Shown: positions 43,088-57,018 of the stretch, one piece after another
Position numbering within the stretch: the stretch's first letter is position 1
Layout of the letters: each line of letters opens with the position of its first letter
Source of the DNA: Methylomonas rapida
GTDB lineage: Bacteria > Pseudomonadota > Gammaproteobacteria > Methylococcales > Methylomonadaceae
Assembly: GCF_024360925.2 (NCBI RefSeq)
Contig: NZ_CP113517.1
Coordinates: 2,790,001 to 2,854,000 of the forward strand
Direction: 5' to 3'
DNA length: 64,000 bases
The notes under the pieces: model-generated
Database searches by the model: none
What the model was told of the DNA's origin: nothing
What the model saw: the letters and a program-made list of their open reading frames with translations, nothing else
Made by a program: the position numbers and the translations under genes

Positions 43088-43166
43088 TCCGACTTCGGTC
43101 GGCGTTCCGTTATTAAGCGGCGACGGTGGTTGTCCATCGGCGTGTCAGGTGCGTCAAGCCTGATGT
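43088..43166 (+). ncRNA. Four-hairpin leader RNA, copy 1 (upstream of ssb)
   Basis: Hairpins in order: CCGAC-TTCG-GTCGG (43089-43102), CCGTT-ATTA-AGCGG, a variable GGTGG-TTGT-CCATC, and TCAGG-TGCGTCAAG-CCTGA ending near 43163. It is followed by a T-rich tract and then the pseudoknot leader of ssb. Two further copies (46606, 52152) keep every stem by compensatory change. Function unknown. Confidence 0.75.
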
Positions 43167-43181
43167 GAGTTTTTATTGTTT

Positions 43182-43296
43182 AACCCTGCCGGGCGTCTCG
43201 ATTCCCTCAGGGATTCGGCGTTCCGGCATGCCCATCGCCGCGCCGCTGGGTATTGTTATCGTTGAGTCGGGCGCGGCCGACAGGAGGAATGTCATC
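43182..43296 (+). promoter_or_regulatory. Pseudoknot leader of ssb
   Basis: P1 pairs CCCT (43184-43187) with AGGG (43209-43212). P2 pairs TGCCGG (43187-43192) with CCGGCA (43223-43228). The P2 3' side region GGCGTTCC (43217-43224) can instead pair with GGAATGTC (43286-43293), which overlaps the ribosome-binding site. This is the longest leader of the set, with an extra GCCGCGCC/GGCGCGGC hairpin between P2 and the ribosome-binding site. Confidence 0.6.
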
Positions 43297-43728
43297 ATGG
43301 CCAATCGCGGCGTGAACAAAGTCATCTTGCTAGGCCGGCTCGGCGCCGATCCGGACGTTCGTTATATGCCAAATAACGGCGGCAAAGTCGTTGCCATCCG
43401 TTTGGCAACCAGCGAAGTCTGGAACGATCCCAAAAACGGCAAACAGGAGCGGACCGAATGGCATCGGGTCGTGTTTTTCAAAAAACTCGCCGATACCGCC
43501 GAACAGTATTTGCGTAAAGGCAGCAAGGTCTATGTGGAAGGCACTCTTCGCACCCAGCAATGGGATAAGAACGGCGAAAAACGCTACCGCACGGAAGTGG
43601 TTGTGCATGATTTGCAACTGCTCGACCGCCCTGCCCCGTCAACACCTACCAATGGTTCATCAACATCGAACCCGGCCGCCGAGGACGCCGACTGGGATGA
43701 CGACTACAGCGATATGCCCATGCATTAA
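43297..43728 (+). CDS. ssb: Single-stranded DNA-binding protein
   Basis: 143 residues from the ATG at 43297, chosen over an upstream frame because CAGGAGGA lies directly before it and [20 protein letters not shown] is the normal SSB N terminus. The OB fold is complete ([36 protein letters not shown]). The acidic tail ends [10 protein letters not shown] rather than the usual DDIPF, so binding to SSB-interacting host proteins may be altered. First gene of the element's recombination block, supporting the Bet/exonuclease pair. Confidence 0.95.
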
Positions 43729-43803
43729 ACCCCAGCACGCCGATCATTGGCGTTCGTTGGTTTAACCGTTACACCGCCGACCCGTTTCAGGTTTCGGTAT
43801 TTC

Positions 43804-43870
43804 AACCCCCTGGGGAACACCATTCCCTAGCGGGCGATGGCGTTCCCTTTTTTATTGAAGGAGAGCCACC
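43804..43870 (+). promoter_or_regulatory. Pseudoknot leader of the bet gene
   Basis: P1 pairs CCC (within 43805-43810) with GGG (43832-43834). P2 pairs GGGAAC-CCAT (43813-43823) with ATGG-GTTCCC (43837-43847), one of the strongest stems of the set. The P2 3' strand can instead pair ATGG (43837-43840) with CCAT at the start codon (43869-43872), and CCTT (43846-43849) with AAGG of the ribosome-binding site (43858-43861). Confidence 0.6.
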
Positions 43871-44926
43871 ATGAACCCAAACAACCGTAATACCTTACCC
43901 AAAACCCGCGACCTGCCGATGCCGGTAGCCGCGCAACAAAGCTATGGACTGTCGGAGCAGTCCTGGAAAGTGCTGACCGAAGTCACCTTTCCCACGGCGA
44001 AAACCCCGGAAGCCATCCTGATGGCGCTGGATTACTGCAAAGCCCGCAAGCTCGACATCTTCAAAAAGCCGGTACATATCGTGCCGATGTGGAGCGCGGG
44101 GTTGGGCCGCAATATCGAAACCGTCTGGCCGTCCATCATGGAAATCCAGACCACTGCGTCGCGGACCGGTGTTTGGGCCGGCATGGATAGGCCCGCCTGG
44201 GGTCCGGATGTCACCAAAACCTTTACCGGTCGCTACAAGGACGATAACGAGCAATGGCAGGAATCCAGTATCACCGTGACCTTTCCCGAATGGGTGGCGG
44301 TTACTGTGTACCGGATCGTCGGCGGCAAACGTTGCGCCTTTACCGAGGAAGTCTACTGGCTGGAGGCTTATAGCACCGCCGGCGGTAAAAACTCGCAAGT
44401 CCCAACCGCCATGTGGATCAAACGCCCCAAAGGGCAGTTGGCCAAATGCGGTAAAGCAGCGTCGCTCAGGGCCGCCTTTCCGGAGGAATGCGGTTATGCC
44501 GCCGAGGAAATGGATGGCAAAACCCTTGACGATATTGCCGACGGTAGCGTGATCGATGGCAGTGCCACGGTTGTCAATGCAACCGAAGCTGACAATGAAG
44601 ATCGCGTTTGGGCGGGCGATGCAGGCGTTGATGCAAACCGCGTCATCGATCTGTCGCAAATCCATCCCAAGGTGCAAAAAGCCGTGGCGGAACTGGTAAG
44701 GCGTACAGCAGCGGCCGGCGCCTGGAAAGCCGCCTACGACTATGCCAACCAGAAGTTCAAAGGCATCGACCTGACCTTTGCCTTGGCCGAGTTGGACAAG
44801 GTATCGGAAATTGCCCCCAATGCCACACAAGTCTTGGGCCAAGCCGACAGTACCGCCATGCCACCATTGTCACCCAAAGAGATGGCCATGACTCAGGCGC
44901 GTCAGGCTTTGGGTGCCAACCGGTAG
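43871..44926 (+). CDS. bet: Bet/RecT-family single-strand annealing protein
   Basis: A 351-residue phage recombination protein of the Bet (RecT) family. AILMALDYCKARKLDIFKKP and VHIVPMWSAGLGRNIETVWP are family signatures, and KCGKAASLRAAFPEECGYAA ends the core. The C terminus (from about 220) is a variable linker. It works with the SSB upstream and the YqaJ-type exonuclease downstream as a Red-like homologous recombination system, as in SXT/R391 elements. GAAGGAG precedes the ATG. Confidence 0.93.
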   Translation: MNPNNRNTLPKTRDLPMPVAAQQSYGLSEQSWKVLTEVTFPTAKTPEAILMALDYCKARKLDIFKKPVHIVPMWSAGLGRNIETVWPSIMEIQTTASRTGVWAGMDRPAWGPDVTKTFTGRYKDDNEQWQESSITVTFPEWVAVTVYRIVGGKRCAFTEEVYWLEAYSTAGGKNSQVPTAMWIKRPKGQLAKCGKAASLRAAFPEECGYAAEEMDGKTLDDIADGSVIDGSATVVNATEADNEDRVWAGDAGVDANRVIDLSQIHPKVQKAVAELVRRTAAAGAWKAAYDYANQKFKGIDLTFALAELDKVSEIAPNATQVLGQADSTAMPPLSPKEMAMTQARQALGANR

Positions 44927-45030
44927 TCATATCGCTGGACAGGGCTTTGCCGTTGCTTAATCGGATTACGGGTTAGGCCATTTTCAATCGGGCGTCTGCT
45001 GGCTTTTCAGCATCCGTCACATTCAACTAC

Positions 45031-45102
45031 CACCCCTTCAGGGCGTCATGACTCGCCCGTGGGGGATTCATGATGCTCTGAATTTCTTCATAAGGAGAGA
45101 TC
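45031..45102 (+). promoter_or_regulatory. Pseudoknot leader of the gene at 45103
   Basis: P2 pairs TTCAG-GC-TCATGA (45037-45051) with TCATGA-GC-CTGAA (45068-45082). P1 pairs CCCC (45033-45036) with GGGG (45061-45065). The alternative pairing is the clearest of all: TCATGAT and CTCT (45068-45079) with AGAG and ATCATGA (45096-45106), which buries both ribosome-binding site and start codon. Confidence 0.65.
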
Positions 45103-45438
45103 ATGAATGCTATCGATCAATCATTGAACCGCGTGCCCTGTCATACCGACTGGCAACGTTACGATTCACCCACGGTATTACGCCGTCACGGCCGGGGGTT
45201 TCTGGAACGCCTATGGCGACCCCAGCACTGCGAGCGCAATCCGCAGCCCTTGAGCCGACCAGAACTAACGACACTGGCCGAGAGTTTTGGCGGAGTCTGT
45301 CTGCCGGCGCAAGACGAACTGCTGTTGCTGTTCGGTGATGGCCATTGGGCCCGGCGCTGCCAGACCCAGTTGCACAAGCTCGGCATCGAGACCGTGCGCT
45401 TCGGTTGCCAGGTACAGTTGACCGGATTTTCGCGATGA
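45103..45438 (+). CDS. Conserved element protein of unknown function, upstream of the exonuclease
   Basis: A 111-residue protein with no domain I can name; basic in the N-terminal half (RRHGRGFLERLWRPQHCER). The start has an AAGGAG ribosome-binding site and the pseudoknot leader. Its stop overlaps the exonuclease ATG (ATGA), so it is translationally coupled and probably co-regulated with the recombination genes. Confidence 0.7.
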   Translation: MNAIDQSLNRVPCHTDWQRYDSPTVLRRHGRGFLERLWRPQHCERNPQPLSRPELTTLAESFGGVCLPAQDELLLLFGDGHWARRCQTQLHKLGIETVRFGCQVQLTGFSR

Positions 45439-46436
45439 AGGTCGTCGACGTATCGCAACGTTCCGATGCCTGGCGGCAATGGCGTTCACAAGGCGTCAGT
45501 GCCAGTGAAGCGGCCATCGTCATGAACCGCTCACCGTATAAAAGCTATTGGCGACTCTGGGCAGAAAAGATTGGTCTGGTGTTGGAAGCCAGTTTGGACA
45601 ACAACCCGTTGATCCGCGCCGGCATCCAGCAAGAGCCCGAGGCCCTGCAACGCTTCGAGGATAAACACGAGCTGATGCTATTGCCACTGTGCGGCGAGTC
45701 GGAGCAGTTTCCTTTGATACGGGCTTCGTTCGACGGCTTGTCCGAACACCAAGAACCCGTCGAAATCAAATGTCCGCACGAGACCACGTTTCTGGATGTG
45801 GTGTTGAACCGGGAAGCCTCGGCTGCCTATCAATTGTATTGGTGCCAAGTGCAACAGCAACTCTTGGTCGCCGAAGCACAACGCGGTTTTTTGTTTTTCT
45901 ATCACCAAGGCCAGGATGTGGAATTTGAGATTCAGCGCGATGAGACCTTTCTCACCGCCCTGGTCGAGTCCGCGATGGACTTCTGGTCGGCGGTGAAATC
46001 GAAAAAGGAACCACATAAGGATCCCGAACGCGATTTGTATTTGCCGCAAGGCGATGCAGAACGGCAATGGCAACAACTGGCGGCAACGTATCGACAGCGG
46101 GCGTTGACTATCCAAGATCTCAAAAGCCATCTCAACCAGTTGGAGGACGAGCAGTCGCGCATTGAAGACACCTTGGTGACATTGATGGGCGATTACGTGG
46201 CCGCAGAGCATTCCGGGTTGCGTATCAGCCGGTTTCAAAGCCAGGGTGCCATCGATTACAAGGCGGCACTGCAAGCCTTGCAACCGGATGTTCAGGCTGA
46301 GGCGCTGGAAGTCTATCGAAAACCGTCCACCACACGGGTCCGCGTGACCTGCCGGGACGACGACGGCAAGCATGCCGAAGTGCCGTTTGATGCTCAAGCC
46401 TTGAAAGACCTGGTGGGCGTGGACTTTTGGTTTTGA
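45435..46436 (+). CDS. YqaJ-type recombination exonuclease
   Basis: 333 residues from the ATG at 45435, which overlaps the preceding stop. The lambda-exonuclease-like core shows WRQWRSQGVSASEAAIVMNR, LIRASFDGLSEHQEPVEIKC with the D and ExK catalytic residues, and YYHQGQDVEF-type strands. It resects double-stranded ends for the Bet protein encoded upstream. The C-terminal third (from about 230) is a coiled-coil and beta region conserved in element-borne versions. It has no pseudoknot leader of its own, being coupled. Confidence 0.9.
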   Translation: MKVVDVSQRSDAWRQWRSQGVSASEAAIVMNRSPYKSYWRLWAEKIGLVLEASLDNNPLIRAGIQQEPEALQRFEDKHELMLLPLCGESEQFPLIRASFDGLSEHQEPVEIKCPHETTFLDVVLNREASAAYQLYWCQVQQQLLVAEAQRGFLFFYHQGQDVEFEIQRDETFLTALVESAMDFWSAVKSKKEPHKDPERDLYLPQGDAERQWQQLAATYRQRALTIQDLKSHLNQLEDEQSRIEDTLVTLMGDYVAAEHSGLRISRFQSQGAIDYKAALQALQPDVQAEALEVYRKPSTTRVRVTCRDDDGKHAEVPFDAQALKDLVGVDFWF

Positions 46437-46457
46437 GTCTTGATGGTTCGTTTAACG

Positions 46458-46488
46458 ACATCCTGTAACCCTGGTGGTTACGGGATGT
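46458..46488 (+). terminator. Strong hairpin downstream of the exonuclease gene
   Basis: ACATCC-GTAACC pairs with GGTTAC-GGATGT around a 5-nt loop (one mismatch in 13). It lies 22 nt after the stop. No long T run follows, so it may stabilise the transcript or terminate weakly. Confidence 0.5.
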
Positions 46489-46605
46489 TCATTCATTGAC
46501 GTCATGATTGATTCGGTTCGGGCATGTCGGTTTTAGGCTGGGCTTTTAAAAAAAGTCCAACCCAAAACCCGCATCGTTCAGGCATTCCCTTCGTGGAATC
46601 CCGAA

Positions 46606-46680
46606 TCCGGTTTCGACCGGCGTTCCGTTGTTAAGCGGCATGAGCGTTTGCCTCGTGTGCCAGGTGCGTCAAGCCTGGTG
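46606..46680 (+). ncRNA. Four-hairpin leader RNA, copy 2
   Basis: CCGGT-TTCG-ACCGG (46607-46620), CCGTT-GTTA-AGCGG, CATGAG-CGTTTGC-CTCGTG and CCAGG-TGCGTCAAG-CCTGG. Compared with copy 1, two pairs of the first stem and one of the last have changed on both sides. A T run (46681-46685) follows the last hairpin, so it could act as an intrinsic terminator or attenuator before the next leader. Confidence 0.75.
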
Positions 46681-46689
46681 TTTTTGTTT

Positions 46690-46755
46690 GTCCCGTTGGG
46701 GTTCATCACCTTTGCGGGACTTGGTGACCCCTTTTATTGATTGAAGGAGGTCATT
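46690..46755 (+). promoter_or_regulatory. Pseudoknot leader of the gene at 46756
   Basis: P1 pairs GTCCCG (46690-46695) with CGGGAC (46715-46720), six perfect pairs. P2 pairs GGGGT (46698-46702) with ACCCC (46727-46731), and CACC (46707-46710) with GGTG (46723-46726). Alternative: GTGACC (46724-46729) with GGTCAT (46749-46754), overlapping the ribosome-binding site GGAGG. Confidence 0.65.
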
Positions 46756-46968
46756 ATGAATCACGACTTTTGGAAAACTTTTCAATGCTGGTTGAACGTT
46801 GCGCATAACGATGACATCCAGGTCAAAAAGCGGTTGTTGCTGGACATGCACCGTCAACTCTCGGACCCCGGTTTGAGAAGCGACATTCAGCGCATTCTGC
46901 GTTTGATGGATCGGGAGCTATTGGCCCGTGCCGAATGGGCGATGTACTGCGTCATGCAGCTACGTTGA
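46756..46968 (+). CDS. Small helical protein of unknown function
   Basis: 70 residues, all predicted helix (MNHDFWKTFQCWLNVAHNDD and on), no domain recognised. It has an excellent ribosome-binding site (AAGGAGG) and its own pseudoknot leader, the same control as the large neighbouring genes, which argues that it is a real gene. Confidence 0.65.
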   Translation: MNHDFWKTFQCWLNVAHNDDIQVKKRLLLDMHRQLSDPGLRSDIQRILRLMDRELLARAEWAMYCVMQLR

Positions 46969-46981
46969 TTTTTTAATCCAT

Positions 46982-47000
46982 CCTGGTTGACCAGGGCTTT
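46982..47000 (+). terminator. Short hairpin with T-rich tail before the CbbQ-like gene
   Basis: CCTGGT-TG-ACCAGG (46982-46995) followed by GCTTTATT. A weak intrinsic terminator or attenuator lying directly upstream of the next pseudoknot leader. Confidence 0.4.
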
Positions 47001-47003
47001 ATT

Positions 47004-47078
47004 CACCCGTTGGGGCTCATCACCCCTCGGGACCGGTGCGCCCCTTGTTATTTGAGGCTAGTCCTCGAGGAGCTCACC
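47004..47078 (+). promoter_or_regulatory. Pseudoknot leader of the CbbQ-like ATPase gene
   Basis: P1 pairs CCCG (47006-47009) with CGGG (47028-47031). P2 pairs GGGGC (47012-47016) with GCCCC (47040-47044), and CACC (47021-47024) with GGTG (47035-47038). GGTG can instead pair with CACC right before the ATG (47075-47078); this is the weakest alternative of the set. A CCTCGAGG palindrome covers the ribosome-binding site. Confidence 0.5.
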
Positions 47079-48020
47079 ATGTATCAATCCTATTCCATTG
47101 CCGACACCTTCGGCATTCAGGCCCCGGCGTCCATGAAAGTGGAAGGCTTTGCCCCGGCCAATAACCCTTATGTGCCGGCTATCAAGCCGTATGTGTTTCG
47201 CAAGGATCACTTGCGGGATGTGTTGGCGTTTTTAGGCGCTCATAATGGCGATGGCTTATACCTGACTGGTCCGACCGGTTCCGGTAAAACCTCGTTGTTG
47301 GAACAAGTCGCGGCGCGTCTCAACTGGGGCGTGCATTCGGTCACCGGTCACGGTCGACTGGAACTCAATGATCTGCTCGGCCAGTATATGCTGGTCGACG
47401 GCGGCGGCATGAAGTGGATCGATGGTCCGTTGACCCTGGCGGTTCGCCTGGGCCATGTGCTGTTGATCAACGAAATCGATGCCATCGATCCAGCCGAACT
47501 GATTGGCTTGAATGAAATTGTTGAAGGAAAACCTCTAACGATTCCGCAAACCGGCGATGTGATTGCTCCGCATCCCAAGTTTCGTTTGGTGGCCACCGGC
47601 AATAGTGCTGGATCGGGTGATCAATCGGGATTGTATCAAGGGGTGTTGCGGCAAAACTTGGCGTTTTTAGACAGGTTTCGCTTGATGGAAGTCGGTTACC
47701 CCGAACCGGAAGACGAAATGAAGTTGTTGGCCGATGTGGTGCCAACCATGCCGGAATCGGTACGGGAAAGCATGATCAAAGTCGCCAATCAGATTCGTAA
47801 AGTCTTCATCGGCGGTGCGGATGGCGGCGGTATGTTGTCGGTGACCTTATCGACGCGCGGTTTAGTGCGCTGGGCTTCGTTGGTCGCCACCTTTAAAAGT
47901 GCGCCCAATGCCCTCGCCTATTCGTTGGATCGGGCCTTGACCTTCCGAGCCGAACCCGCCGAACGCGAAGCGATTCATCGCATCGCCAAGGATGTGTTCG
48001 GAGACGATTGGGCGGTGTAG
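47079..48020 (+). CDS. MoxR/CbbQ (CobS-like) AAA+ ATPase
   Basis: 313 residues from ATG 47079 after GAGGAG. Walker A YLTGPTGSGKTSLLEQ, Walker B VLLINEIDAIDPAELIGLNE and RLVATGNSAGSGDQSGLYQG mark a MoxR-class AAA+ protein. In metal chelatases and CbbQ/CbbO systems such ATPases act with a VWA protein; here the VWA partner is very likely the CobT-like gene at 50176. This ATPase/VWA pair recurs in SXT/R391-like elements near bet and exo. The WGR gene follows after 2 nt. Confidence 0.9.
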   Translation: MYQSYSIADTFGIQAPASMKVEGFAPANNPYVPAIKPYVFRKDHLRDVLAFLGAHNGDGLYLTGPTGSGKTSLLEQVAARLNWGVHSVTGHGRLELNDLLGQYMLVDGGGMKWIDGPLTLAVRLGHVLLINEIDAIDPAELIGLNEIVEGKPLTIPQTGDVIAPHPKFRLVATGNSAGSGDQSGLYQGVLRQNLAFLDRFRLMEVGYPEPEDEMKLLADVVPTMPESVRESMIKVANQIRKVFIGGADGGGMLSVTLSTRGLVRWASLVATFKSAPNALAYSLDRALTFRAEPAEREAIHRIAKDVFGDDWAV

Positions 48021-48022
48021 CC

Positions 48023-48757: not shown

Positions 48758-48772
48758 TTCTCTGAAGGCCCA

Positions 48773-48811
48773 GCCTTGTATTCCTATATCGGGTTCGATA
48801 CAGGCATTTTT
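48773..48811 (+). terminator. Intrinsic terminator or attenuator upstream of the DUF3150 gene
   Basis: GCCT-GTAT (48773-48781, one bulge) pairs with ATAC-AGGC (48798-48805) and is followed by ATTTTT. It ends 8 nt before the next pseudoknot leader. Confidence 0.55.
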
Positions 48812-48818
48812 AACAATC

Positions 48819-48878
48819 ACCCGGAAGGGGCCATTCGCCCCAGCGGGGTCGGTGTGCCTTCTTCCCAAGGAGGCACTC
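48819..48878 (+). promoter_or_regulatory. Pseudoknot leader of the DUF3150 gene
   Basis: P1 pairs CCCG (48820-48823) with CGGG (48844-48847). P2 pairs GAAGG (48824-48828) with CCTTC (48857-48861). Alternative: GTGCC (48854-48858) with GGCAC (48872-48876), which overlaps the AAGGAGG ribosome-binding site. A competing GGGGC/GCCCC hairpin lies inside the loop. Confidence 0.55.
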
Positions 48879-50087
48879 ATGACACACACCCAACTCATTC
48901 TGGACCAAGTGGTCTTGATCAAAGTCGACGCCACGATTTACGGCGCGCGCAAGAAGCTCAACAAGGAGGATCTGGTACTGGCCGATGGGAGCAAGTTGCC
49001 ACCGGAGGATTTGGCCAGTTTGGGCTCGAAGCGCTTGCTCGACCCGGATCGGCTTTCGGTGTTCAACCGGCTAAAGAAGGAAGCAGAACGCATTTGTTTG
49101 CGCGTCGGCACCCGATTTCTCGGCGGCTTCATCGTACCGGTGGCGGCAGCGGCGCAGGTCACGGCGGAACTGGATCGCATCGCCAGGGATTTTGCCCAGG
49201 CACGGGCCGAGTTTCTGGATGGCTACGATGCGGCGGTACAAGACTGGATGGTCAAACATCCGGAATTTGCCGGCATCATCGAAAAGGCCATCGACTCAAT
49301 GGCCTTGGTCGCCACCCGCTTGGCGTTTGATTACCTGGTGGTCTCGGTCGCTTTACCCGAACAGATACCAACACAGGAGGTCGAACGCCTGGAAAGCAAA
49401 CTCGGTTCGTTGAGCGAGCAGATGTTCCATGAAATCGCGGTGGACGCCAACTTGCTGGTCGAGCAATCGTTACTCGGCAAGGAACAAGTCACCCGCAACG
49501 CGCTCAGGCCGATCAAACGCATCCGCGACAAACTCGATGGTTTGAGTTTTCTGGATCATCGGGTGGCGCCTGTGGTAGCAACCATTGACGACTTGCTCGG
49601 CAAGATCCCGAATCGGGGATCGATCGAAGGCAGTTTACTGCAAGAAATCCTCGCCACGGCGATGTTGCTGGCCGATCCGGATAAAACCCGGCGGCACGGT
49701 GAAGGTTTGTTGGCGGCGCAAGCGCCTGCACCGAAGCTAGCGACCGATACTGACGTTGATGTCGAAGAAACCGTCGATCCAACGGAACCCGAGTCATCCG
49801 AATTGCCAGCATCACCAACACCCGTCATCCCTGTCATTGCAGAGTCCGTTTCGAGCGATCCGGATTTTACCGATCTGTTTGACGGCATCTTTGATGATGA
49901 TCTGGAAGCGGAATCGGCAACGGAAGACTGGGCTTTGGAGGTCTTGCTGATTAACCATCAGTCTGATCTGGAAGCCGGTCATGATGCAGATAAACCTAAT
50001 CACTCTGAAGCTCCTGCAGAACCGATAACGGTGACTGCGGGAAACGATGAGGAAACCGACGATTCCGACCAGGATTACTGGTTCTGA
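48879..50087 (+). CDS. DUF3150-domain protein
   Basis: 402 residues from ATG 48879 after AAGGAGG; an in-frame ATG 27 nt upstream lies inside the leader and is rejected. Residues 1 to about 290 match DUF3150 proteins of conjugative elements (LDQVVLIKVDATIYGARKKL, then LADGSKLPPEDLASLGSK). The last 110 residues are an acidic low-complexity tail ending DQDYWF. Found between the ATPase/WGR pair and the CobT-like gene; function unknown but conserved with them. Confidence 0.78.
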   Translation: MTHTQLILDQVVLIKVDATIYGARKKLNKEDLVLADGSKLPPEDLASLGSKRLLDPDRLSVFNRLKKEAERICLRVGTRFLGGFIVPVAAAAQVTAELDRIARDFAQARAEFLDGYDAAVQDWMVKHPEFAGIIEKAIDSMALVATRLAFDYLVVSVALPEQIPTQEVERLESKLGSLSEQMFHEIAVDANLLVEQSLLGKEQVTRNALRPIKRIRDKLDGLSFLDHRVAPVVATIDDLLGKIPNRGSIEGSLLQEILATAMLLADPDKTRRHGEGLLAAQAPAPKLATDTDVDVEETVDPTEPESSELPASPTPVIPVIAESVSSDPDFTDLFDGIFDDDLEAESATEDWALEVLLINHQSDLEAGHDADKPNHSEAPAEPITVTAGNDEETDDSDQDYWF

Positions 50088-50112
50088 ATGCGCTGAAACC
50101 CTTTAACACTAA

Positions 50113-50175
50113 ACCCACGGGGGCAAAGTCATGTCCCGCTGGGGCCATGGTTTGCCCCCACAATTGGAGCACACC
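50113..50175 (+). promoter_or_regulatory. Pseudoknot leader of the CobT-like gene
   Basis: P2 pairs GGGGGCAAA (50119-50127) with TTTGCCCCC (50151-50159), nine perfect pairs, extended by CATG/CATG. P1 pairs CCCA (50114-50117) with TGGG (50140-50143). Alternative: CATGGT (50146-50151) with ACCATG (50173-50178), which contains the start codon. Confidence 0.65.
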
Positions 50176-51996
50176 ATGAAAAATAGAACCTTACACAACG
50201 CCTTTCCCATCGTTGCGGCGGCCATTGGCAATCGCTTTGGCGTCAAAGTCAGCGTCGGTGGTGAACAAGCTTATACCGATGGCAAATCGATTCAATTGCC
50301 GGCCTATGAGGGCGACGATCCGGATTATCAGGATGTCGCCTGGGGTCTGTTAGCGCATGAAGCGGCGCATATTCGCTATTCGGATTTTACGCTGCGCTAT
50401 GGGCATTCGGTCTTACGTCGGCGGCTTTGCAATGCCATTGAAGATGTCCGCATCGAGCACGAATTGGCCAAAGACTTTCCGGGGACTCGACTGACGATAC
50501 GTACGGTCATCGAAAAGATGATTGCCAAAGGCGACTTTGTCGCCAGCCGTATCGACGAACATCCAGCTAATATTCTGTACAGCTATGTCTTGAAAAGCTT
50601 GCGTGCCAGTGTATTGGGTCAGTCGGCGTTACGGCCGTTGGTCGAGGAAACCGAAATCGCATTGAAGGCAACGTTTCCAAACGGTGCGGTGACGCGGCTG
50701 AAAGGCTTGCTGTCCGAAGTACCGGAAGGTTTGCAATCGGAGTCCGATTGCCTGCATTTGACCGATCGCATCCTGACCATGATCGAGGAAGCATTCGAGC
50801 AACAACGGCAGCGGAATCAGGCGCAACAATCTGAAAATGAGGAAGGTTCGCCTGAATCGGATGATGCGGATCAAGACGCAGACTCAGAAGATTCGGACGA
50901 TTCGAATGACCAGGATTCCCAAGATGAAGTGGAACCCGATGAACGATTACCCAACGATACTGACGACAATACGTCTTCAGAACCGGCGGGTAATGATGAT
51001 TCGAATCCCAAAAATCCTGACGATGAACCGACAACGCCATCCGACAGTTCGACATCCGACCCGCAAGGTGAAGATGAAGAAAACACGGAGATTGCCGATC
51101 CGATTGGCATCTTGCAAACCCTATTGTCCGCCGAAGACGCTGACATCGAGCAGGATATATTCGAGTCATTGAAATCGGCGTTGTCGTTGACGGCGGAAAA
51201 CGTGTCGGAACTGCTGATGCCCAGTGGCCTCGAACCGCCCATGGACGAACGAGCCGGTGCGATTTTACTGCGCAAGGTGCAAGGCGAATCGGGAAAAATC
51301 CGTGCCGCGCTGCAAGGCATCGTGCAATCGCAAACCCTGAGCCGCACGCAACATGCCTGTCGTGGTCGGCGGCTGGATGGCAAGCGTTTGCATCGCCTGC
51401 CTCTCGGTGAAATCAGGGTATTTCAACGTCAACAGGCGAAAGCGGCACCGAATACGGCGATTCATTTATTACTCGATAAATCCGAAAGCATGGGTTATCA
51501 GGTGACAGATAGCCAAGGGCAACCGATTGGATCGCGTATGCCGATTGCGTTGGAAGCGACCTTAGCGCTGGCCTTGGCCTTTGAAGAGATTCCGGGGGTT
51601 AATCCCGGCGTCACCGCGTTTCCAGGGCGTCAGGACGATTCGGTCTATCGCTTGCTGGAACATGGTCAACGTGTGAATGCTCGAACCGGTGCCTTTTCGG
51701 TAGCCGCCGCCGGCAGTACACCAATGACTGAAGCGATTTGGTTTGGTGTGGCGTCACTGCTGCGATGCAGGGAACCGCGCAAAGTGTTGATGGTGATGAC
51801 CGATGGTCAGCCCAACGAGTCACTGAGCACACTGGAGTTGTTGCAGCGCTGCCGCGATAGCGGTATTGAAACCGTCGGTGTGGGGTTGGGACTGGATGTC
51901 AGTCATCTCTTCCCGGTTGCCATCACCATTAACGATCTTTCAGAGCTGAGAGCGCAATTGTTCGAGCTCTCGAAAGCGGTGTTGTTAGCGGCGTAA
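50176..51996 (+). CDS. CobT-like VWA-domain protein with HExxH motif
   Basis: 606 residues from ATG 50176. The N-terminal domain contains WGLLAHEAAHIRYSDF (HEAAH, a metalloprotease-like zinc site). Residues about 215-330 are an extremely acidic Asp/Glu/Ser linker. The C-terminal VWA domain has AIHLLLDKSESMGYQ (MIDAS) and VLMVMTDGQPNE. The layout is that of cobaltochelatase CobT-like proteins, whose partner is a MoxR/CobS ATPase, here at 47079. In these elements the pair has no cobalamin context and probably remodels DNA-bound complexes; that is inference. Confidence 0.85.
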   Translation: MKNRTLHNAFPIVAAAIGNRFGVKVSVGGEQAYTDGKSIQLPAYEGDDPDYQDVAWGLLAHEAAHIRYSDFTLRYGHSVLRRRLCNAIEDVRIEHELAKDFPGTRLTIRTVIEKMIAKGDFVASRIDEHPANILYSYVLKSLRASVLGQSALRPLVEETEIALKATFPNGAVTRLKGLLSEVPEGLQSESDCLHLTDRILTMIEEAFEQQRQRNQAQQSENEEGSPESDDADQDADSEDSDDSNDQDSQDEVEPDERLPNDTDDNTSSEPAGNDDSNPKNPDDEPTTPSDSSTSDPQGEDEENTEIADPIGILQTLLSAEDADIEQDIFESLKSALSLTAENVSELLMPSGLEPPMDERAGAILLRKVQGESGKIRAALQGIVQSQTLSRTQHACRGRRLDGKRLHRLPLGEIRVFQRQQAKAAPNTAIHLLLDKSESMGYQVTDSQGQPIGSRMPIALEATLALALAFEEIPGVNPGVTAFPGRQDDSVYRLLEHGQRVNARTGAFSVAAAGSTPMTEAIWFGVASLLRCREPRKVLMVMTDGQPNESLSTLELLQRCRDSGIETVGVGLGLDVSHLFPVAITINDLSELRAQLFELSKAVLLAA

Positions 51997-52151
51997 TCCT
52001 CAGTCCGTTATCCGTAGCCCAATCCTTGGCTTAATGCCTTGGATTATGGCTACGGGTAGCTGATTGCAACCGCATATTGTCGAATGCACTCAATTCCTGG
52101 AGTCCATTCGACAAGCAGACATTTCATGCGTTCTTTTCGAAGGATGCTGAA
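51997..52151 (+). other. Intergenic region with two hairpins
   Basis: CCGTAGCC (with inner ATCC) pairs with GGAT and GGCTACGG (52012-52055), just after the CobT-like stop. GTCGAATG pairs with CATTCGAC (52079-52112). No T run follows either. No ORF is supported. The region precedes the third four-hairpin RNA. Confidence 0.55.
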
Positions 52152-52230
52152 TCCGACTTCGGTCGGCGTTCCGTCGTTAGGCGGCGAGCACGTTAAACCG
52201 TGATCGTGTCGGGTGCGTCAAGCCCGATGT
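52152..52230 (+). ncRNA. Four-hairpin leader RNA, copy 3
   Basis: CCGAC-TTCG-GTCGG (52153-52166), CCGTC-GTTA-GGCGG, CACG-TTAAAC-CGTG (with outer CGA/TCG) and TCGGG-TGCGTCAAG-CCCGA. The second and fourth stems differ from copies 1 and 2 by paired changes. Not followed by a T run, unlike the other two. Confidence 0.75.
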
Positions 52231-52264
52231 AAAGCGCAGGGGTATGAACTGCTGCAAATCTAAA

Positions 52265-52341
52265 ACCCGCTTCGGGCGACCATCGCCCGGCCGGGTGCTG
52301 TTCATTCGAAGTGTTTCTTAAATTTTCAAAGGAGAACTTCA
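52265..52341 (+). promoter_or_regulatory. Pseudoknot leader of the gene at 52342
   Basis: P1 pairs ACCCG (52265-52269) with CGGGT (52292-52296). P2 pairs CTTCG (52270-52274) with CGAAG (52307-52311). Alternative: GAAGTGTTTCTT (52308-52319) with AAGGAGAACTTC (52329-52340), eleven of twelve positions including two G-U pairs, covering the whole ribosome-binding site. Confidence 0.65.
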
Positions 52342-52875
52342 ATGAACTTTGTTTTCGGCATCATTATTTTGGCGCTGTTCATCCTCGCCTTGCGGGTAAT
52401 CTGGGCAACGGCGTTGCAACTGCTGAGCACATTGAAACACGTGTCTCAAATGTTTCGCAGCTATCAAAGCAAGCGCCAAGCACGTAACCGGCTACCGGTC
52501 ATCATGCCACGTAGCCGCGAGGGCATGGATTGGTTGGCGATATCGGATTCGGTGCGTCAGGAAATTCAGACACGCAATCACGGTGTCAATCGTGAGGATG
52601 TCCGACTGGAAGCGCAATTACAGGCGAAGTTAAAAACCATCGAGATCTACGAGGCGGATATTCAAATCGCCAAACTGGAACGGGAGTTATTGAAAATCAA
52701 ACCAGTGATCGAAAGTCCCGAGCCTGAAGTCAAAAAACCTCGGCGCTCGAAAAAGCAATCGCTTGCGGTTGCTGGTGTAGAAACTCAGAAAGTTCCGCAT
52801 CAGGTATCCCAATTACGGGCAGCACTGAAAGGCAACGGTTTATCGACGCCAGTCAGTGAGTCTGTCCGCCATTGA
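52342..52875 (+). CDS. Membrane-anchored protein of unknown function
   Basis: 177 residues. The first 25 (FVFGIIILALFILALRVIWA) form one transmembrane helix; the rest is cytoplasmic, basic and coiled-coil prone (LEAQLQAKLKTIEIYEADIQ), with a KKPRRSKK stretch. No family recognised. It has AAAGGAGA before the ATG and the pseudoknot leader. It overlaps an opposing ORF at its 3' end by 23 nt. Confidence 0.7.
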   Translation: MNFVFGIIILALFILALRVIWATALQLLSTLKHVSQMFRSYQSKRQARNRLPVIMPRSREGMDWLAISDSVRQEIQTRNHGVNREDVRLEAQLQAKLKTIEIYEADIQIAKLERELLKIKPVIESPEPEVKKPRRSKKQSLAVAGVETQKVPHQVSQLRAALKGNGLSTPVSESVRH

Positions 52876-53227
52876 AAACCGCAAGCGTCGCGCCGTTTTG
52901 TGTTATCACGGTGCGTACTGGCTTAGCCAAGTCAACCGTGGGTTCGTCGAAGCGAAAGCCGTCCGGCAACAGCGACTGGAGATCCTCAAAGGTTTCCCGT
53001 CGCAATTGCCGGACATTGCTCAACAACGTCCAGGCTCGCTTCGGATAGTCGATGTTTTGCAACACATCGGCTTCCGCGGCATCCAACTTGGTCAAAATTG
53101 TTTTGCAAAGATTTAACGCATTCAGTCTGGGATCGAGTGGTATTGCCATCGGTTTTCGTACTGCTTGCGTACTCTCGGTCTGCTTAGGACTGAGAAAATC
53201 AAAAATGCGCAAAATATCGTCAAACAT
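52853..53227 (-). CDS. Hypothetical protein on the opposite strand
   Basis: 124 residues, composition coding-like (NLCKTILTKLDAAEADVLQN, a helical Leu/Asp-rich pattern). It is convergent with the membrane protein gene, overlapping it by 23 nt. The ribosome-binding site is weak (GCAGAGA). It is the only minus-strand candidate in this block and lacks the leader found on its neighbours. No family recognised. Confidence 0.5.
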   Translation of the reverse strand: MFDDILRIFDFLSPKQTESTQAVRKPMAIPLDPRLNALNLCKTILTKLDAAEADVLQNIDYPKRAWTLLSNVRQLRRETFEDLQSLLPDGFRFDEPTVDLAKPVRTVITQNGATLAVFNGGQTH

Positions 53228-53292
53228 GGCTATTTCTCTGCTTTTTAATGAGTTTTAGTCACCATATACCGATTTTTACGCGAATTCAACCC

Positions 53293-53331
53293 CGCTGCAT
53301 GAGCCAGATTTAGGCTTAATGCAGCGTTTTT
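53293..53331 (+). terminator. Intrinsic terminator or attenuator before the zinc-ribbon gene
   Basis: CGCTGCAT (53293-53300) pairs perfectly with ATGCAGCG (53319-53326), followed by five T. The T run abuts the next pseudoknot leader (ACCC at 53333), so it may be an attenuator for that gene. Confidence 0.65.
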
Positions 53332-53332
53332 A

Positions 53333-53392
53333 ACCCTGCAGGAACCTCATCCTGTCGGGTGGTCGCTCCTGCATTTTTTGGAGGACATGACC
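53333..53392 (+). promoter_or_regulatory. Pseudoknot leader of the zinc-ribbon gene
   Basis: P1 pairs ACCC (53333-53336) with GGGT (53357-53360). P2 pairs TGCAGGA (53337-53343) with TCCTGCA (53367-53373), extended by ACC/GGT. Alternative: GGTC and CTCC (53361-53369) with GGAG of the ribosome-binding site (53380-53383) and GACC (53389-53392) just before the ATG. Confidence 0.65.
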
Positions 53393-53593
53393 ATGAAAAC
53401 AATCAACCAACCCAGAGTTGGCACAACCTCTGCCGAAAACAGCACGGTTCGCTATCTGAATCAGTACCGCTGTCCTTACTGCCAAACCGAATGGGAGGAT
53501 ATATGGGATTGCGGCTGTAACGATCGCTGTCCAGACTGCAACAAGGAGATCGAGCCTTATGAAAGCGCATTGATCGAGGGTGAATCGGTGTAA
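53393..53593 (+). CDS. Small zinc-ribbon protein
   Basis: 66 residues from ATG 53393; an ATG 15 nt upstream is rejected because GGAGGA would overlap it. A double Cys-x2-Cys ribbon is visible: YRCPYCQTEW and CGCNDRCPDCNKEI. Small nucleic-acid or protein-binding zinc protein typical of conjugative elements. The same frame continues after its TAA into the next ORF. Confidence 0.7.
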   Translation: MKTINQPRVGTTSAENSTVRYLNQYRCPYCQTEWEDIWDCGCNDRCPDCNKEIEPYESALIEGESV

Positions 53594-53635
53594 ACCGAAT
53601 CGCCAGTCGAAGACCCCGCCTACGCCAATGTCACG

Positions 53636-53887
53636 GTGAAGGGTGTAAATCGGCTCTTCGTTGTTTCCTACGAAATCGACTATGTTCACCGCGTGTCGAT
53701 TGGCATCACCGCGGATAGTCCGGAAACGGCACAACAGATTGCCGAGCAGGCATTCAACGATGCCACCCTTTGGGATGACACCGCCGCCATGCCGTTATCG
53801 TTAGCATTCTGGACGATTTGCGCCAGGATCGCCGGGAGGCCGACGATGTGGCGGGCGAGTTTCAACTGCCCCATGAGTTGGCCTTGA
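53636..53887 (+). pseudogene. DpnD/PcfM-like small protein, probably frameshifted
   Basis: The frame reads LFVVSYEIDYVHRVSIGITA, then DSPETAQQIAEQAFNDATLW and DDTAAMPL, which resembles small element proteins that normally go on with an acidic LLDDYEE-type tail. Here the matching tail (ILDDLRQDRREADDVAGEF) lies in another frame and runs straight into the DUF4942 gene. There is no ribosome-binding site; the frame is the in-frame continuation of the zinc-ribbon ORF after its TAA. A frameshift near 53800 is likely. Confidence 0.4.
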
Positions 53888-55017
53888 CGAATGCCTTCAT
53901 CGATAACGCGGTGTTGATGTTCAATGCCGCGGTCGAAGCAGCGCGACAGGCCGTGGTCAGTGAAGCCCGAGCCAGCCGTTATCGGACCATGCTGGGCAAA
54001 ACGCTCGGCGAACTGAGCGGTGGCGGTATCAGTAGTGAAGACGACTCGTCATCGGATGCGGTGAAGCGGTCGCTGTTCAAACGTTATCACGATCTGAAGA
54101 ATCGGGCCTGGGCCAGCATCTTACGCTCGACACAGGTCACTTCGCGCTTGTCATCGGCGGCGCAGAAACGCTTGGAGTCGGATTTCGAAACGGTGAAATC
54201 CTTGGAATTTACCGTGTCGAATATCTACGGCTTTCTGCAAGGCATCATCGATCAGCAAGGTGAAATTCAACTGAGCATGGTGTGCGATGTGTTTGATTTG
54301 ATCACCCGCTATTACAGTGACAATGCAGTGTTTTACATGGGCTGGAAAAGCAATGACAAACATCGCACGCTGGGGATGCGGATCAAAACCACGCGTTTCG
54401 TTCTACCAGGGCACAAAGTTGAGTCTTATCATAACAGTCTGAACTGGGAGTCGGAACGTCTGTTAGCGGATTTCGACAAGGTGTTTGCGTTGCTCGATGG
54501 TAAGACCGAAGCGGACGTGAGTTTGGTGTCGGTGTTTCGGCAGCATTTTCATGAACTTCGGGCTGGAAAACGGATCAGCGGCAGTTATTTTGACGTTCGC
54601 TATTATCCAGGCGTCGGCACCATCCACTTTTTTCCAAAGAGCAAAACCTTGATCGACCGCATGAACCGTTGGGTCGGTCGCCAGCGCCGCTGGTTACCGC
54701 CTGTAGATACTCAAGCCGGACAAGGCTTCTGGCAGCAGTTCGAACAGGCAGAATCGTTCGACAGAGCGTTTCACAGCGAAGTGAACAGGCAGTGTCCTCG
54801 CAGTAGCCGGCATATCCATTTCGATCCCTTTTGGGCGATCAAGCACGGCGGCGAGTCGGAACGGGAAAGAGGTCATCGTCTGTTAACCCAGGCGATGAGC
54901 ACGGTACTTGCCAGCCGAGGCATCGATCCCGATGCGGTATTGGAAAACGAACCATCCAGCTTGCTGGAATGGACTGGCTCATTACCATCTTCTACCGACC
55001 TGGCTTTGGCATCGTAA
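53818..55017 (+). CDS. DUF4942-domain protein
   Basis: About 399 residues if started at the TTG at 53818, but the first 20 residues may belong to the preceding frameshifted gene, and no ribosome-binding site is visible. The body fits DUF4942 proteins of SXT/R391-like elements: IDNAVLMFNAAVEAA, FKRYHDLKNRAWASILRSTQ, DVFDLITRYYSDNAVFY and YFDVRYYPGVGTIHFFPKSK. Function unknown. Without a leader of its own, it may depend on translation from upstream. Confidence 0.7.
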   Translation: MRQDRREADDVAGEFQLPHELALTNAFIDNAVLMFNAAVEAARQAVVSEARASRYRTMLGKTLGELSGGGISSEDDSSSDAVKRSLFKRYHDLKNRAWASILRSTQVTSRLSSAAQKRLESDFETVKSLEFTVSNIYGFLQGIIDQQGEIQLSMVCDVFDLITRYYSDNAVFYMGWKSNDKHRTLGMRIKTTRFVLPGHKVESYHNSLNWESERLLADFDKVFALLDGKTEADVSLVSVFRQHFHELRAGKRISGSYFDVRYYPGVGTIHFFPKSKTLIDRMNRWVGRQRRWLPPVDTQAGQGFWQQFEQAESFDRAFHSEVNRQCPRSSRHIHFDPFWAIKHGGESERERGHRLLTQAMSTVLASRGIDPDAVLENEPSSLLEWTGSLPSSTDLALAS

Positions 55018-55065
55018 TCCGGTGTTATACAGGTCTTTAACTTAACCACTGGCCTAGCCAGTACT

Positions 55066-55149
55066 ACCCGCCTCGGGGAGATGATCCGTTCTCCCCGTCG
55101 GGGTTGGACTGTGTCGTTTCCTCGGGGCTTTTTTATTTGAGGAACTCAC
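55066..55149 (+). promoter_or_regulatory. Pseudoknot leader of the GHKL ATPase gene
   Basis: P1 pairs ACCCG (55066-55070) with CGGGGT (55099-55104). P2 pairs CGGGGAGA (55074-55081) with TTTCCTCG (55117-55124, two G-U). Alternative: GTG and GTTTCCTC (55111-55123) with GAGGAAC and CAC (55139-55149), covering the ribosome-binding site. A local GGGGAG/CTCCCC hairpin competes with P2. Confidence 0.55.
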
Positions 55150-56745
55150 ATGAACACCACACAATTATCGGTAAACCCCGAAAAACTGATCAACAACCTA
55201 CGCTTCAGCTTTACCCAGTCCACCACGGTACTGGGAGAGCTGATGCAAAATGCCCGCCGTGCCGGCGCCACGTTCGTCAGCTTCGAGTATTCGGAAGACG
55301 CTCGAACCTTGACGGTGTGTGACGATGGCTGCGGCATTGCCTGTTTGAAAACGTTACTCACCGTAGCTGAGTCCGGCTGGGATGTTGAGGTCATCGAACG
55401 GGAACATCCGTTTGGATTGGGATTTTTGTCGGCAATCTTTGCCTGCGATGCCATCAGCGTCGACAGCAAAGGCGGTCGATTTTCGGTGGGTACAGCCAAG
55501 CTTTTGGCCTTCCAACCGATTGCGATCGAACCCGCGGACTGGCAAGGCATCACGCGTTTGACGTTGACCCAGTTCAAACCGGAAGCGGATCGGATTGAAT
55601 CCCAGTTGCGTCGCTTGGCACGGGGATATCCGATTGAGGTGCGCTTTAACGGTGTCAGTCTGGATCGGCCGCGAGCGGTTAACTCAACATTACCGTTCAT
55701 CAAGACCGAACTGGGTGAGCTGTATTTGTATGGTTTGTCCCAGGGCGAAGACTGGTTACGACAGTCGGAGTATTTTCATCTGTATCTGCAAGGCTTGCCG
55801 GTCTATCACAGTCATCACGAACGAGACCCCGGTCATGTGATCCATTTGGATTCAAGCCGGTTTTTCGCGCGGTTGCCGGATCGGGATAAGTTGATTGATG
55901 AAGCACAGGTGATAGCCGAGGTTAAGCAGGTTCTGCAACGGGAAGCCAGGCAACGCCTGGAAGCGATCAAGCACCAGCTGTCGGCGGTGGCGTTTGTACA
56001 GGGCTACAACGCACTGAAAACCTACCGCTGCCTGGATTTACTGAATGACGTACCGTTATTGCCCCAACAGGTATTGGCGATTATTCAGGACTATCCGATC
56101 AAGGAAGGTTGCAGCAATGTGAATTTGACAGCGGTTTCACAACCGGTCAGTCGAAGCGATGTGGAAAACGGCCTTGTCAAAGTCGCCGACCTGGATGATC
56201 TCGATGAGGTCGGTGCGCTACGCTGGATGTTTGCTTGGCACAGGGATTATCGGGTGTTTCGGCCGGGGTTGGATGCCAGGCATTGGCTGTTTTCGTACCT
56301 GGTCGATTTGAACGCGCCGGTCATCACCCTAGACATCGTCAACGAAACGCACCGCGCGTTTTTTGAAGGGCAATGGGTGAGTGGTCAGGCGGTATTTTGT
56401 GAAAAATACCGGTTAACCCTGAATGGCGAGTCTGTTGACATCGATCACGATGCCGTCTATGACGAGGATCAGGACTGCTTCATCGTACCCAGTCGGGAGA
56501 CATCCGGATTGGTGGTTTGCCAGGCATCGTCCTACTACGACGAATGGGATACGTTCATGGAATCCGCCAAGGAAGCCGATGAATGGGATTTTCATAACTT
56601 CGTGGTGGCCAATACGGCTGACAAACCAGCGGACGCATTGCAACGACTGTTGCCGACCTTTAACAGTTGTCCGGCGCTGTTTTCCAGGACCTTTCAAATC
56701 GTGCTCGGCAATGATGGCGATGTCGTCACCGTTGCGGAAATGTAG
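55150..56745 (+). CDS. GHKL-type (GyrB/Hsp90-like) ATPase
   Basis: 531 residues. The Bergerat ATP-binding fold is at the N terminus: VLGELMQNARRAGATFVSFE (N box with E and N), LTVCDDGCGIACLK (DxGxG) and EHPFGLGFLSAIFACD. The rest is unassigned, acidic at the C terminus. Similar solitary GHKL proteins sit in the core of SXT/R391-like elements; their role is unknown. GAGGAAC precedes the ATG. Confidence 0.82.
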   Translation: MNTTQLSVNPEKLINNLRFSFTQSTTVLGELMQNARRAGATFVSFEYSEDARTLTVCDDGCGIACLKTLLTVAESGWDVEVIEREHPFGLGFLSAIFACDAISVDSKGGRFSVGTAKLLAFQPIAIEPADWQGITRLTLTQFKPEADRIESQLRRLARGYPIEVRFNGVSLDRPRAVNSTLPFIKTELGELYLYGLSQGEDWLRQSEYFHLYLQGLPVYHSHHERDPGHVIHLDSSRFFARLPDRDKLIDEAQVIAEVKQVLQREARQRLEAIKHQLSAVAFVQGYNALKTYRCLDLLNDVPLLPQQVLAIIQDYPIKEGCSNVNLTAVSQPVSRSDVENGLVKVADLDDLDEVGALRWMFAWHRDYRVFRPGLDARHWLFSYLVDLNAPVITLDIVNETHRAFFEGQWVSGQAVFCEKYRLTLNGESVDIDHDAVYDEDQDCFIVPSRETSGLVVCQASSYYDEWDTFMESAKEADEWDFHNFVVANTADKPADALQRLLPTFNSCPALFSRTFQIVLGNDGDVVTVAEM

Positions 56746-56947
56746 TCGAAACCCAATTGGCAATGGCTGCGGCTGTGTTAGCCCGTGGCTATTGGCGGGT
56801 TTTCTGGCGAACGACCGCTTAACAAGCACGCATTCCAAAACACCTGACGCAGTAATGTCGCCAGCTTAAGCGTCTTTAGTGAAATGTGCTCTGCCGACGG
56901 TCAACGTCTGCAGGCATCGCTAACGACGCTTTGAACATTTTTGACAA

Positions 56948-57018
56948 CCCTTCCGGAGAAAGTCCACCCCGGAAGGGGACGGCTTTCTCCAAATTTTTTA
57001 GATTACGGGAGAAAGCCC
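56948..57018 (+). promoter_or_regulatory. Pseudoknot leader of radC
   Basis: The best example of the family. P1 pairs CCCTTCC (56948-56954) with GGAAGGG (56971-56977). P2 pairs GGAGAAAG (56955-56962) with CTTTCTCC (56983-56990). The same CTTTCTCC is an exact 8-bp complement of GGAGAAAG at 57008-57015, the ribosome-binding site of radC, so the two pairings exclude each other. Confidence 0.75.

Follow-up and report, generated by a model that had tools for sequence, protein, structure and literature searches.

Our analysis concerns a stretch of 64,000 nucleotides (nt) of the Methylomonas rapida genome (the window: bases 2790001–2854000 of the 4.59 Mb single contig; coordinates below are window positions), which carries a block of a mobile element. 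The core block of this element includes ssb, bet (RecT), 45103, exo (YqaJ), 46756, an AAA ATPase gene, a gene labelled WGR, DUF3150, VWA, 52342, 53393, DUF4942, 55150 and a broken radC-like gene. Most of these genes are preceded by a leader of one architecture, and according to our analysis each leader is probably a bistable, default-OFF translational attenuator, belonging to a new RNA family that is used element-wide. An initial annotation of the window had proposed eleven such leaders, each able to form an H-type pseudoknot whose last strand could instead pair with the ribosome-binding site (RBS) or start codon.

From 5′ to 3′, a leader reads as strand A (ACCC), a few nt, strand B (GGGGC...), a loop with strand B′ (CCC), strand A′ (GGG), a few nt, strand C (...GCCCC), a T-rich spacer (47% T) and strand R (GGAG...ATG), which runs from the Shine-Dalgarno sequence to the start codon; the end of C lies a median of 21 nt from the start codon. 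Four helices can be drawn between these six strands: P1 (A:A′), P2 (B:C), P3 (C:R, over the RBS and start) and P4 (B:B′). B pairs with B′ or with C, and C pairs with B or with R, while A:A′ is compatible with both choices. In the OFF state, A:A′ and B:B′ would form one 5′ hairpin and C:R would hide the RBS. In the ON state, B would take C, which with A:A′ kept gives the H-type pseudoknot, and B′ and R would be free, so that ribosomes could load. The two-state picture of the initial annotation thus holds for the pseudoknot and the RBS pairing, but it missed P4, and the OFF state is better described as two nested hairpins. Since the 5′ hairpin can form first during transcription and C:R next, OFF is likely to be the default; we infer both this resting state and the direction of switching.

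The 5′ part folds as P1 + P4 in 126 of 130 non-redundant leaders (continuous in 81, symmetric within 1 nt in 115). All 130 have CCC upstream of B, and 125 have GGG in the stretch from B to C. With few exceptions, positions that are well conserved either pair or belong to the Shine-Dalgarno sequence or the start codon. Because R needs GGAG, C holds CC, B holds GG and B′ holds CC; much of the conserved core may therefore derive from the Shine-Dalgarno sequence itself, which would not apply to the CCC/GGG of P1. The resemblance of B to R is slightly above that of swapped partners (5.16 vs 4.71 of 8; longest common word 4.01 vs 3.68).

The leaders were searched with a covariance model (R1), whose training set of 40 leaders includes a single one from the window (that of 50176), and with a strict descriptor, which asks for CCC, five or more P2 pairs and GGG in the strand order A-B-A′-C and was compared with 200 dinucleotide shuffles. 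The shuffle figures below are the numbers of these 200 scoring as well or better. Ortholog counts refer to unique leader sequences from 47 related loci and three short loci of the same genome, with gene starts set by protein homology. R1 picked up nine of the eleven proposed leaders at E≤0.05 (E 2.6e-12 to 0.048), every match ending at the start codon, and the strict descriptor scored at 10 of the 14 start codons of the block. The strands named in the initial annotation are present in the sequence for 10 genes, and its description of one architecture with little shared sequence was borne out. The leaders and the doubtful region upstream of ssb are as follows.

43802..43873, + strand: bet (RecT) leader; A 43806-43808, B 43812-43818, A′ 43832-43834, C 43842-43848, RBS strand 43860-43873; R1 E 3.6e-10 (outside the training set); 7/200 shuffles; orthologs: match in 25/27, strong in 16/27.
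45030..45105, + strand: gene 45103 leader; A 45033-45037, B 45038-45048, A′ 45061-45065, C 45071-45081, RBS strand 45092-45105; R1 E 3.5e-6; 0/200 shuffles; strong in 21/25 orthologs.
46688..46758, + strand: gene 46756 leader; A 46690-46696, B 46698-46703, A′ 46714-46720, C 46726-46731, RBS strand 46745-46758; R1 E 1.8e-6; 0/200 shuffles; strong in 14/17 orthologs.
47002..47081, + strand: AAA ATPase gene 47079 leader; A 47006-47009, B 47012-47016, A′ 47028-47031, C 47040-47044, RBS strand 47067-47081; R1 E 0.008; 7/200 shuffles; orthologs: match in 36/39, strong in 24/39.
48817..48881, + strand: DUF3150 gene 48879 leader; A 48819-48822, B 48823-48828, A′ 48846-48849, C 48857-48862, RBS strand 48868-48881; R1 E 4.8e-7; 5/200 shuffles; strong in 23/32 orthologs.
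50110..50178, + strand: VWA gene 50176 leader; A 50114-50117, B 50119-50127, A′ 50140-50143, C 50151-50159, RBS strand 50166-50178; R1 E 2.6e-12 (member of the training set); 1/200 shuffles; strong in 30/34 orthologs vs 1.2% of shuffles.
52263..52344, + strand: gene 52342 leader; A 52265-52268, B 52269-52276, A′ 52293-52296, C 52305-52312, RBS strand 52330-52344; R1 E 0.048; 4/200 shuffles; orthologs: match in 17/18, strong in only 2.
53331..53395, + strand: gene 53393 leader; A 53333-53336, B 53337-53343, A′ 53357-53360, C 53367-53373, RBS strand 53380-53395; R1 E 0.00089; 0/200 shuffles; strong in 8/19 orthologs.
55064..55152, + strand: gene 55150 probable leader; A 55067-55070, B 55076-55085, A′ 55099-55102, C 55113-55122, RBS strand 55138-55152; weak, R1 E 1.3 at 55090-55152; 3/200 shuffles; strong in 5/16 orthologs.
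56945..57021, + strand: leader of the broken radC-like gene 57019; A 56948-56956, B 56957-56964, A′ 56969-56977, C 56981-56988, RBS strand 57007-57021; R1 E 9e-6; 0/200 shuffles; strong in 5/5 orthologs.
43180..43299, + strand: ssb upstream region, a doubtful member (diverged or no leader); R1 E 0.1 with default filters, absent with filters off; strong in 3/27 orthologs.

In accordance with these values, nine leaders are confirmed and that of 55150 is probable, whereas a leader at ssb is not supported in the window; the ssb of IncC plasmids has a clear one (R1 E 1.3e-4). The share of strong leaders in shuffles was 0–2.4% (VWA, 45103, 46756, DUF3150, AAA, bet and 57019). The shuffle comparison came out well with the strict descriptor (0–7 of 200 as good) but not with a looser one, for which shuffles as good numbered 37/100 for bet, 61/100 for 47079 and 25/100 for 52342. 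The loose descriptor thus fails to separate several leaders from shuffles, so that a leader taken singly is weak evidence and the case has to be made by comparison.

At the starts of ssb, exo, WGR and DUF4942 the strict descriptor found no match, which agrees with the initial view of exo, WGR and DUF4942 as leaderless genes in the window. Among orthologs, a strong leader was found in 7/34 for exo and 0/26 for WGR. The 0/15 obtained for DUF4942 is misleading, because the shortened window copy used as query sets wrong starts: DUF4942 of the Methylomonas koyamae plasmid pLM6 does have a leader (locus L001, 18613-18680), and the stretch that bears it is gone from the window, which explains its absence here.

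P2 was the only helix built into R1, which left the alignments unfitted to P1, P3 and P4 and usable for judging them; the P2 scores on alignments A3 and A4, being fitted by the model, were never taken by themselves. Because alignment A2 shifts P1 by one column in some rows, A3 (109 distinct rows from the best 150 matches) served for counting P1 and P4. On A3, the covariation scores of P2, P3 and P1+P4 were reached by 0/500 shuffles, and their cells with two-sided changes exceeded all 500, the shuffles ignoring relatedness. For P2, 88.5% of the cells were paired, with 130 two-sided changes vs 43 in shuffles. P3 was paired in 72.0% of the cells vs 64.6% in shuffles and 30–50% when slid, with 77 two-sided changes vs 37. 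A one-column slide of P1/P4 paired 76.5% vs 78.7% in register, with 65 two-sided cells vs 55. For the H-type pseudoknot strands of the initial annotation, covariation is strong for P2 and weak for P1.

Partner swaps scored by stacking energy gave a similar picture. In 71 non-redundant leaders from 12 loci outside the training set, native partners were better than swapped ones for P3 (-11.83 vs -9.49; 6.8 standard deviations, sd), P4 (-15.36 vs -12.21; 9.3 sd), P1 (-10.56 vs -9.50; 4.0 sd) and P2 (-14.00 vs -9.17; 11.1 sd, model-fitted). The corresponding distances in 59 leaders of the IncC/Methylomonas type were 9.2 sd (P3), 7.8 sd (P4), 2.5 sd (P1) and 12.9 sd (P2), and in 126 leaders P3 reached -11.47 vs -8.41 and P2 -16.07 vs -9.48. 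For the 10 window leaders, the pairing of C with the RBS was -11.30 in native combinations vs -8.69 after the RBS strands had been redistributed among the leaders (sd 0.69; a fraction of 0.0005 was as low). The predicted alternative pairing of the 3′ strand of P2 with the RBS or start is thus upheld by the swaps, both in the two leader sets and in the window leaders. These results also bear on the possibility that the leader is a protein-binding or RNA-stability element in which RBS pairing is incidental. Such a role would fit CCC and GGG being more constant than pairing requires, though the descriptor and model themselves favour these letters; as C pairs better with its own R than with swapped ones in both leader sets and also in the window leaders by themselves, we regard such a role as highly improbable. 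Overall, the comparisons show the four helices, P1 least strongly, and their competition for strands.

Wobble pairs allowed RNA and DNA structures to be told apart. On 125 leaders chosen by gene homology only, with G-U and A-C scored alike, P2 had G-U 59.8 vs A-C 16.0 (45.7:9.4 and 39.3:6.6 under other settings), whereas swapped partners gave 123.3 vs 104.7 (1.0–1.2 to 1 across settings). This excess of G-U over A-C argues for selection on P2 in the coding-strand RNA. A first G-U/A-C count (P2 70:5, P3 8:15) was set aside, because the descriptor and model accept G-U and not A-C. It could be supposed that the structure acts as single-stranded DNA during conjugation (a promoter or an origin), given that some leader-bearing genes (ssb, methyltransferase) are of kinds described as enriched in plasmid leading regions (PMC11541004), that a possible single-stranded DNA structure has been discussed for the STAXI motif (PMC2864571), and that P3 shows no G-U excess. 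However, the G-U count of P2 is about 4 to 6 times that of A-C with a descriptor blind to the difference, vs about 1:1 when swapped, and this fits coding-strand RNA only; a role at the DNA level was rejected on this count and retains almost no probability.

The nested minimum-energy fold is the OFF form with its two hairpins in 43/47 and 55/71 leaders. A review describes, at a site upstream of SXT bet, a “strong translational attenuator” that is present in IncA/C plasmids too and hinders translation of a highly transcribed operon (PMC4542580), and the reading of the leaders as default-OFF fits this report. The IncC bet gene carries a leader (R1 E 1.3e-4), and by position the SXT attenuator would be this leader. 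The same facts, i.e., the dominance of the OFF fold in predictions and the description of the bet leader as a strong attenuator in that review, are also expected if the leader just holds translation low and senses no signal, B:C being a folding intermediate that fixes the leak. No ligand pocket was seen, in line with such an untriggered device, the conserved positions being nearly all paired or part of the Shine-Dalgarno sequence or start codon. Yet P2 is the best supported helix, and a plain attenuator needs no B that tracks C; we therefore consider this explanation rather unlikely and prefer the bistable attenuator, for which the comparative support is good.

Several observations weigh against a bistable attenuator used across the element. 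ssb and 55150 are weak as leaders. On A3, the number of pairs with any two-sided change is not above shuffles (162, 318 and 481 of the 500 shuffles reach it for P2, P3 and P1+P4, respectively). P1 is nearly invariant, and in the IncC/Methylomonas set it is weak (4/500 swaps as low). For P3, 28% of the cells are unpaired in the fixed register and the wobble excess is absent (50.4:43.8, 21.6:27.5 and 32.6:29.0; swapped 138.6:124.8), so that P3 rests on energy swaps and compensatory changes and, lacking that signature, appears not as firmly established as P2. Among the distant leaders, 14/71 fold ON by nested energy, and the minimum-energy fold is more stable than P2 without P1, by 7.7 kcal/mol on average. 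Given this deficit, the ON state would need P1, a partner or kinetics, and we estimate that P1 in the pseudoknot could recover part of it. Finally, the SXT attenuator was equated with the IncC leader from its position and not from its sequence.

A trigger could be provided by translational coupling, in which the 5′ hairpin is opened by a ribosome that terminates on the gene before it, leaving B to pair with C and turning on the gene that follows. Some leaders do start at the upstream stop codon, and where the intergenic gap before a leader-bearing IncC gene was measured (23 genes), it was 57–77 nt, about the leader length, in 13. However, in the 109 distinct leaders from the best 150 matches, the upstream stop lay 0–20 nt from strand A in 19 and farther in 78, and 12 had no upstream frame of at least 60 codons ending within 150 nt. 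No fixed position of the upstream stop was found in these leaders among frames of at least 60 codons, short leader peptides lying outside the search. On these stop-codon distances, coupling does not appear to be a general trigger, and we consider it improbable. For the bistable attenuator, we infer a trigger common to the leaders, most likely a trans-acting factor or a state supplied by the host. A host-supplied trigger is favoured because leaders occur in elements that have few or no genes in common; this preference does not rest on a systematic search for a regulator that the elements themselves might share. The scarcity of conservation outside the paired positions, the RBS and the start codon argues against the pocket of a metabolite riboswitch.

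The search of related elements with R1 was productive: 350 matches at E≤0.1 were obtained in 926 kb of 48 element loci, and all 300 listed of these lie on the strand of the element genes. A frame of 30 codons or more is opened by 225 of the 228 aligned matches, and 224 end on a start codon, in part a consequence of the ATG that closes the model. In the Methylomonas rapida genome, where the AAA gene of the element has three further copies, 27 of 28 matches at E≤0.1 fall in four clusters with one AAA copy each, and one is isolated. The same kind of block is present in IncC plasmids; in pSN254b all 26 matches at E≤0.05 lie within 79.7–106.8 kb, 25 of them on the plus strand, and 24 of the 37 genes annotated in the block have a leader at their start. 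Among the 13 leaderless ones, six overlap the upstream gene or begin at most 13 nt from it. In pKLC102 there are seven matches at E≤0.05, and of ten matches listed at E≤1 in the part examined, nine end at annotated gene starts. The claim of element-wide use therefore stands for most core genes of the block, but the family recurs in other elements, and comparison of the sequences indicates that it is not special to the Methylomonas rapida element.

Among 369 Gammaproteobacteria genomes (M. rapida included), 26 had a match at E≤0.001, with about 0.4 expected by chance, and 12 of the 26 had at least three matches. A phylum-wide draw gave 13/398 genomes with a match, two of them outside Gammaproteobacteria and two shared with the previous set. 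The 20 leader-bearing proteins scanned, from 12 clusters, include RecT, RadC, DUF4942, cytosine methyltransferase, DUF6094, DUF6573, DUF6927, DUF3275, DUF3577, DUF932 and SNF2/helicase families, and none of the window, IncC core and transfer proteins tried matched three of these clusters (L182, L188 and L191) by tblastn. R1 found nothing at E≤1 in the A. aromaticum plasmid 1 and pKAM330_2 stretches, or at E≤0.05 in 72 viral contigs (943 kb) whose AAA relatives are distant. Three of the 75 loci from the viral collection (L049–L051; AAA identity 51–54%, IncC-like) do carry leaders and were kept in the positive set.

Mutually exclusive pairings, one of them over the RBS, place the leaders by comparison (the P2, P3 and P4 counts and the swaps) in the class of translational attenuators. 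In ermC-type attenuators, mutually exclusive hairpins are formed and one of them hides the RBS. In the leaders, the 5′ arm of the first hairpin contains B, which makes the ON state a 1:3 pairing (the pseudoknot) and not 2:3; unlike the ermC type, this layout needs no stalled leader peptide, short leader peptides not having been searched for. In repZ of IncI-type plasmids, a pseudoknot keeps an RBS-hiding stem open, and antisense RNA and leader translation control one gene. A pseudoknot-opened RBS would be common to both systems, whereas the leaders serve many genes and have no known antisense RNA.

The initial annotation had named STAXI as the nearest comparison. The pseudoknot of STAXI RNA (RF01728) is described as occurring in two or three repeats near ssb and other genes for DNA handling (PMC2864571), and in the pseudoknot and this gene context STAXI and the leaders are alike. 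The leaders differ in being single, ending at the start codon and including an RBS-hiding alternative; in the window there is one leader match per start codon and no tandem repetition. The comparison was not borne out by the Rfam scan, in which RF01728 had no match at gathering in the window, L001–L003 and L181–L195, and none at E≤5 in window 42900–57700; no Rfam family accounted for the leaders in these sequences. As to novelty, our literature searches, at title and abstract level and with subscription papers largely beyond reach, found no description of the leader family, as had been supposed, but an attenuator at SXT bet had been reported (PMC4542580). The leaders resemble it in position upstream of bet and presence in IncA/C; the attenuator described there is one at bet, whereas the leaders form a family of four-helix switches at up to two dozen genes per element in several element families. 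We have filed the leaders as working like a translational attenuator and placed them in no named RNA family.

Upstream of some leaders, a second structured RNA (R2) was found in the window.

43073..43173, + strand: R2 element upstream of ssb; R2 model E 9.5e-28 (in its training set); covariation.
46591..46688, + strand: R2 element abutting the 46756 leader; R2 model E 4.1e-26 (in its training set).
52137..52237, + strand: R2 element 25 nt upstream of the 52342 leader; R2 model E 3e-28 (in its training set).

R2 has four hairpins with a conserved GTGCGTCAA in the last loop, and 14 of its 24 predicted pairs have two-sided changes; it had no Rfam match in the window, where it lies 0–25 nt upstream of the leader region. 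There are 12 copies in the Methylomonas rapida genome and 71 matches in the 56 sources searched, the carriers being Methylococcales loci and a few metagenome-assembled genomes (one labelled Methyloversatilis). In the window, R2 occupies the place that radC RNA (RF01754) has in locus L185 and in pKLC102 (L193). This RNA, which precedes leaders there and differs from them in structure, had no match in the window.

L185 10078-10226, 11586-11738 and 13331-13476: radC RNA (Rfam), directly upstream of leaders (two by R1, one by eye).
L193 (pKLC102) 11884-12031, 12961-13111 and 15489-15626: radC RNA (Rfam), directly upstream of leaders in two of three.

One RF01754 match overlaps its leader by 34 nt, the matches in L185 and L193 otherwise being upstream. 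It is possible that leaders and upstream RNAs (R2, radC RNA) make up a single regulatory unit. In IncC and Vibrio plasmids, a repeat with GATAGCTGGTC and CAAACAGC was noted by eye before several leaders (in L002 upstream of genes 8963, 9992, 14827 and 18647; L003 is similar), and it is a candidate for a promoter or another structured element.

Some features of the neighbourhood should also be mentioned. The top plasmid match of the AAA gene is pLM6 (73.5%). In comparison with this plasmid, DUF4942 and the gene before it are shortened (window 53393-55017), matches stopping at residue 108/193 and restarting at residue 181/589. The radC-like gene (57019-57395) is broken: the RadC domain match is partial, lies in another frame than the 57019 start and is adjoined by an inverted repeat near 57338 (by eye). 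The gene labelled WGR in the initial annotation had no Pfam match. The BREX genes brxA, brxB and brxC (35288-40115, minus strand) had no leader match at E≤5, and this BREX cargo seems exempt from leader control. In pSN254b (W01), a strong leader match at 80141-80206 (E 1.4e-7) has no annotated gene at its end, which suggests a missed gene in IncC plasmids.

In conclusion, if the leaders operate as proposed, one undescribed RNA family would govern the translation of numerous genes in IncC, pKLC102-type and methanotroph elements, including their Bet/Exo recombination genes, and this could explain why SXT bet/exo are highly transcribed yet poorly expressed. As a tentative extension, one host signal, perhaps that of a newly invaded or stressed cell, might open many leaders, so that a block for recombination, methylation and DNA handling stays silent until the element moves. 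Equally speculative is the idea of a general RNA-level induction system for mobile elements, one RNA switch having been taken up by several conjugative element families. The shared control would link many hypothetical genes, and the trigger could be sought with simple leader reporters.

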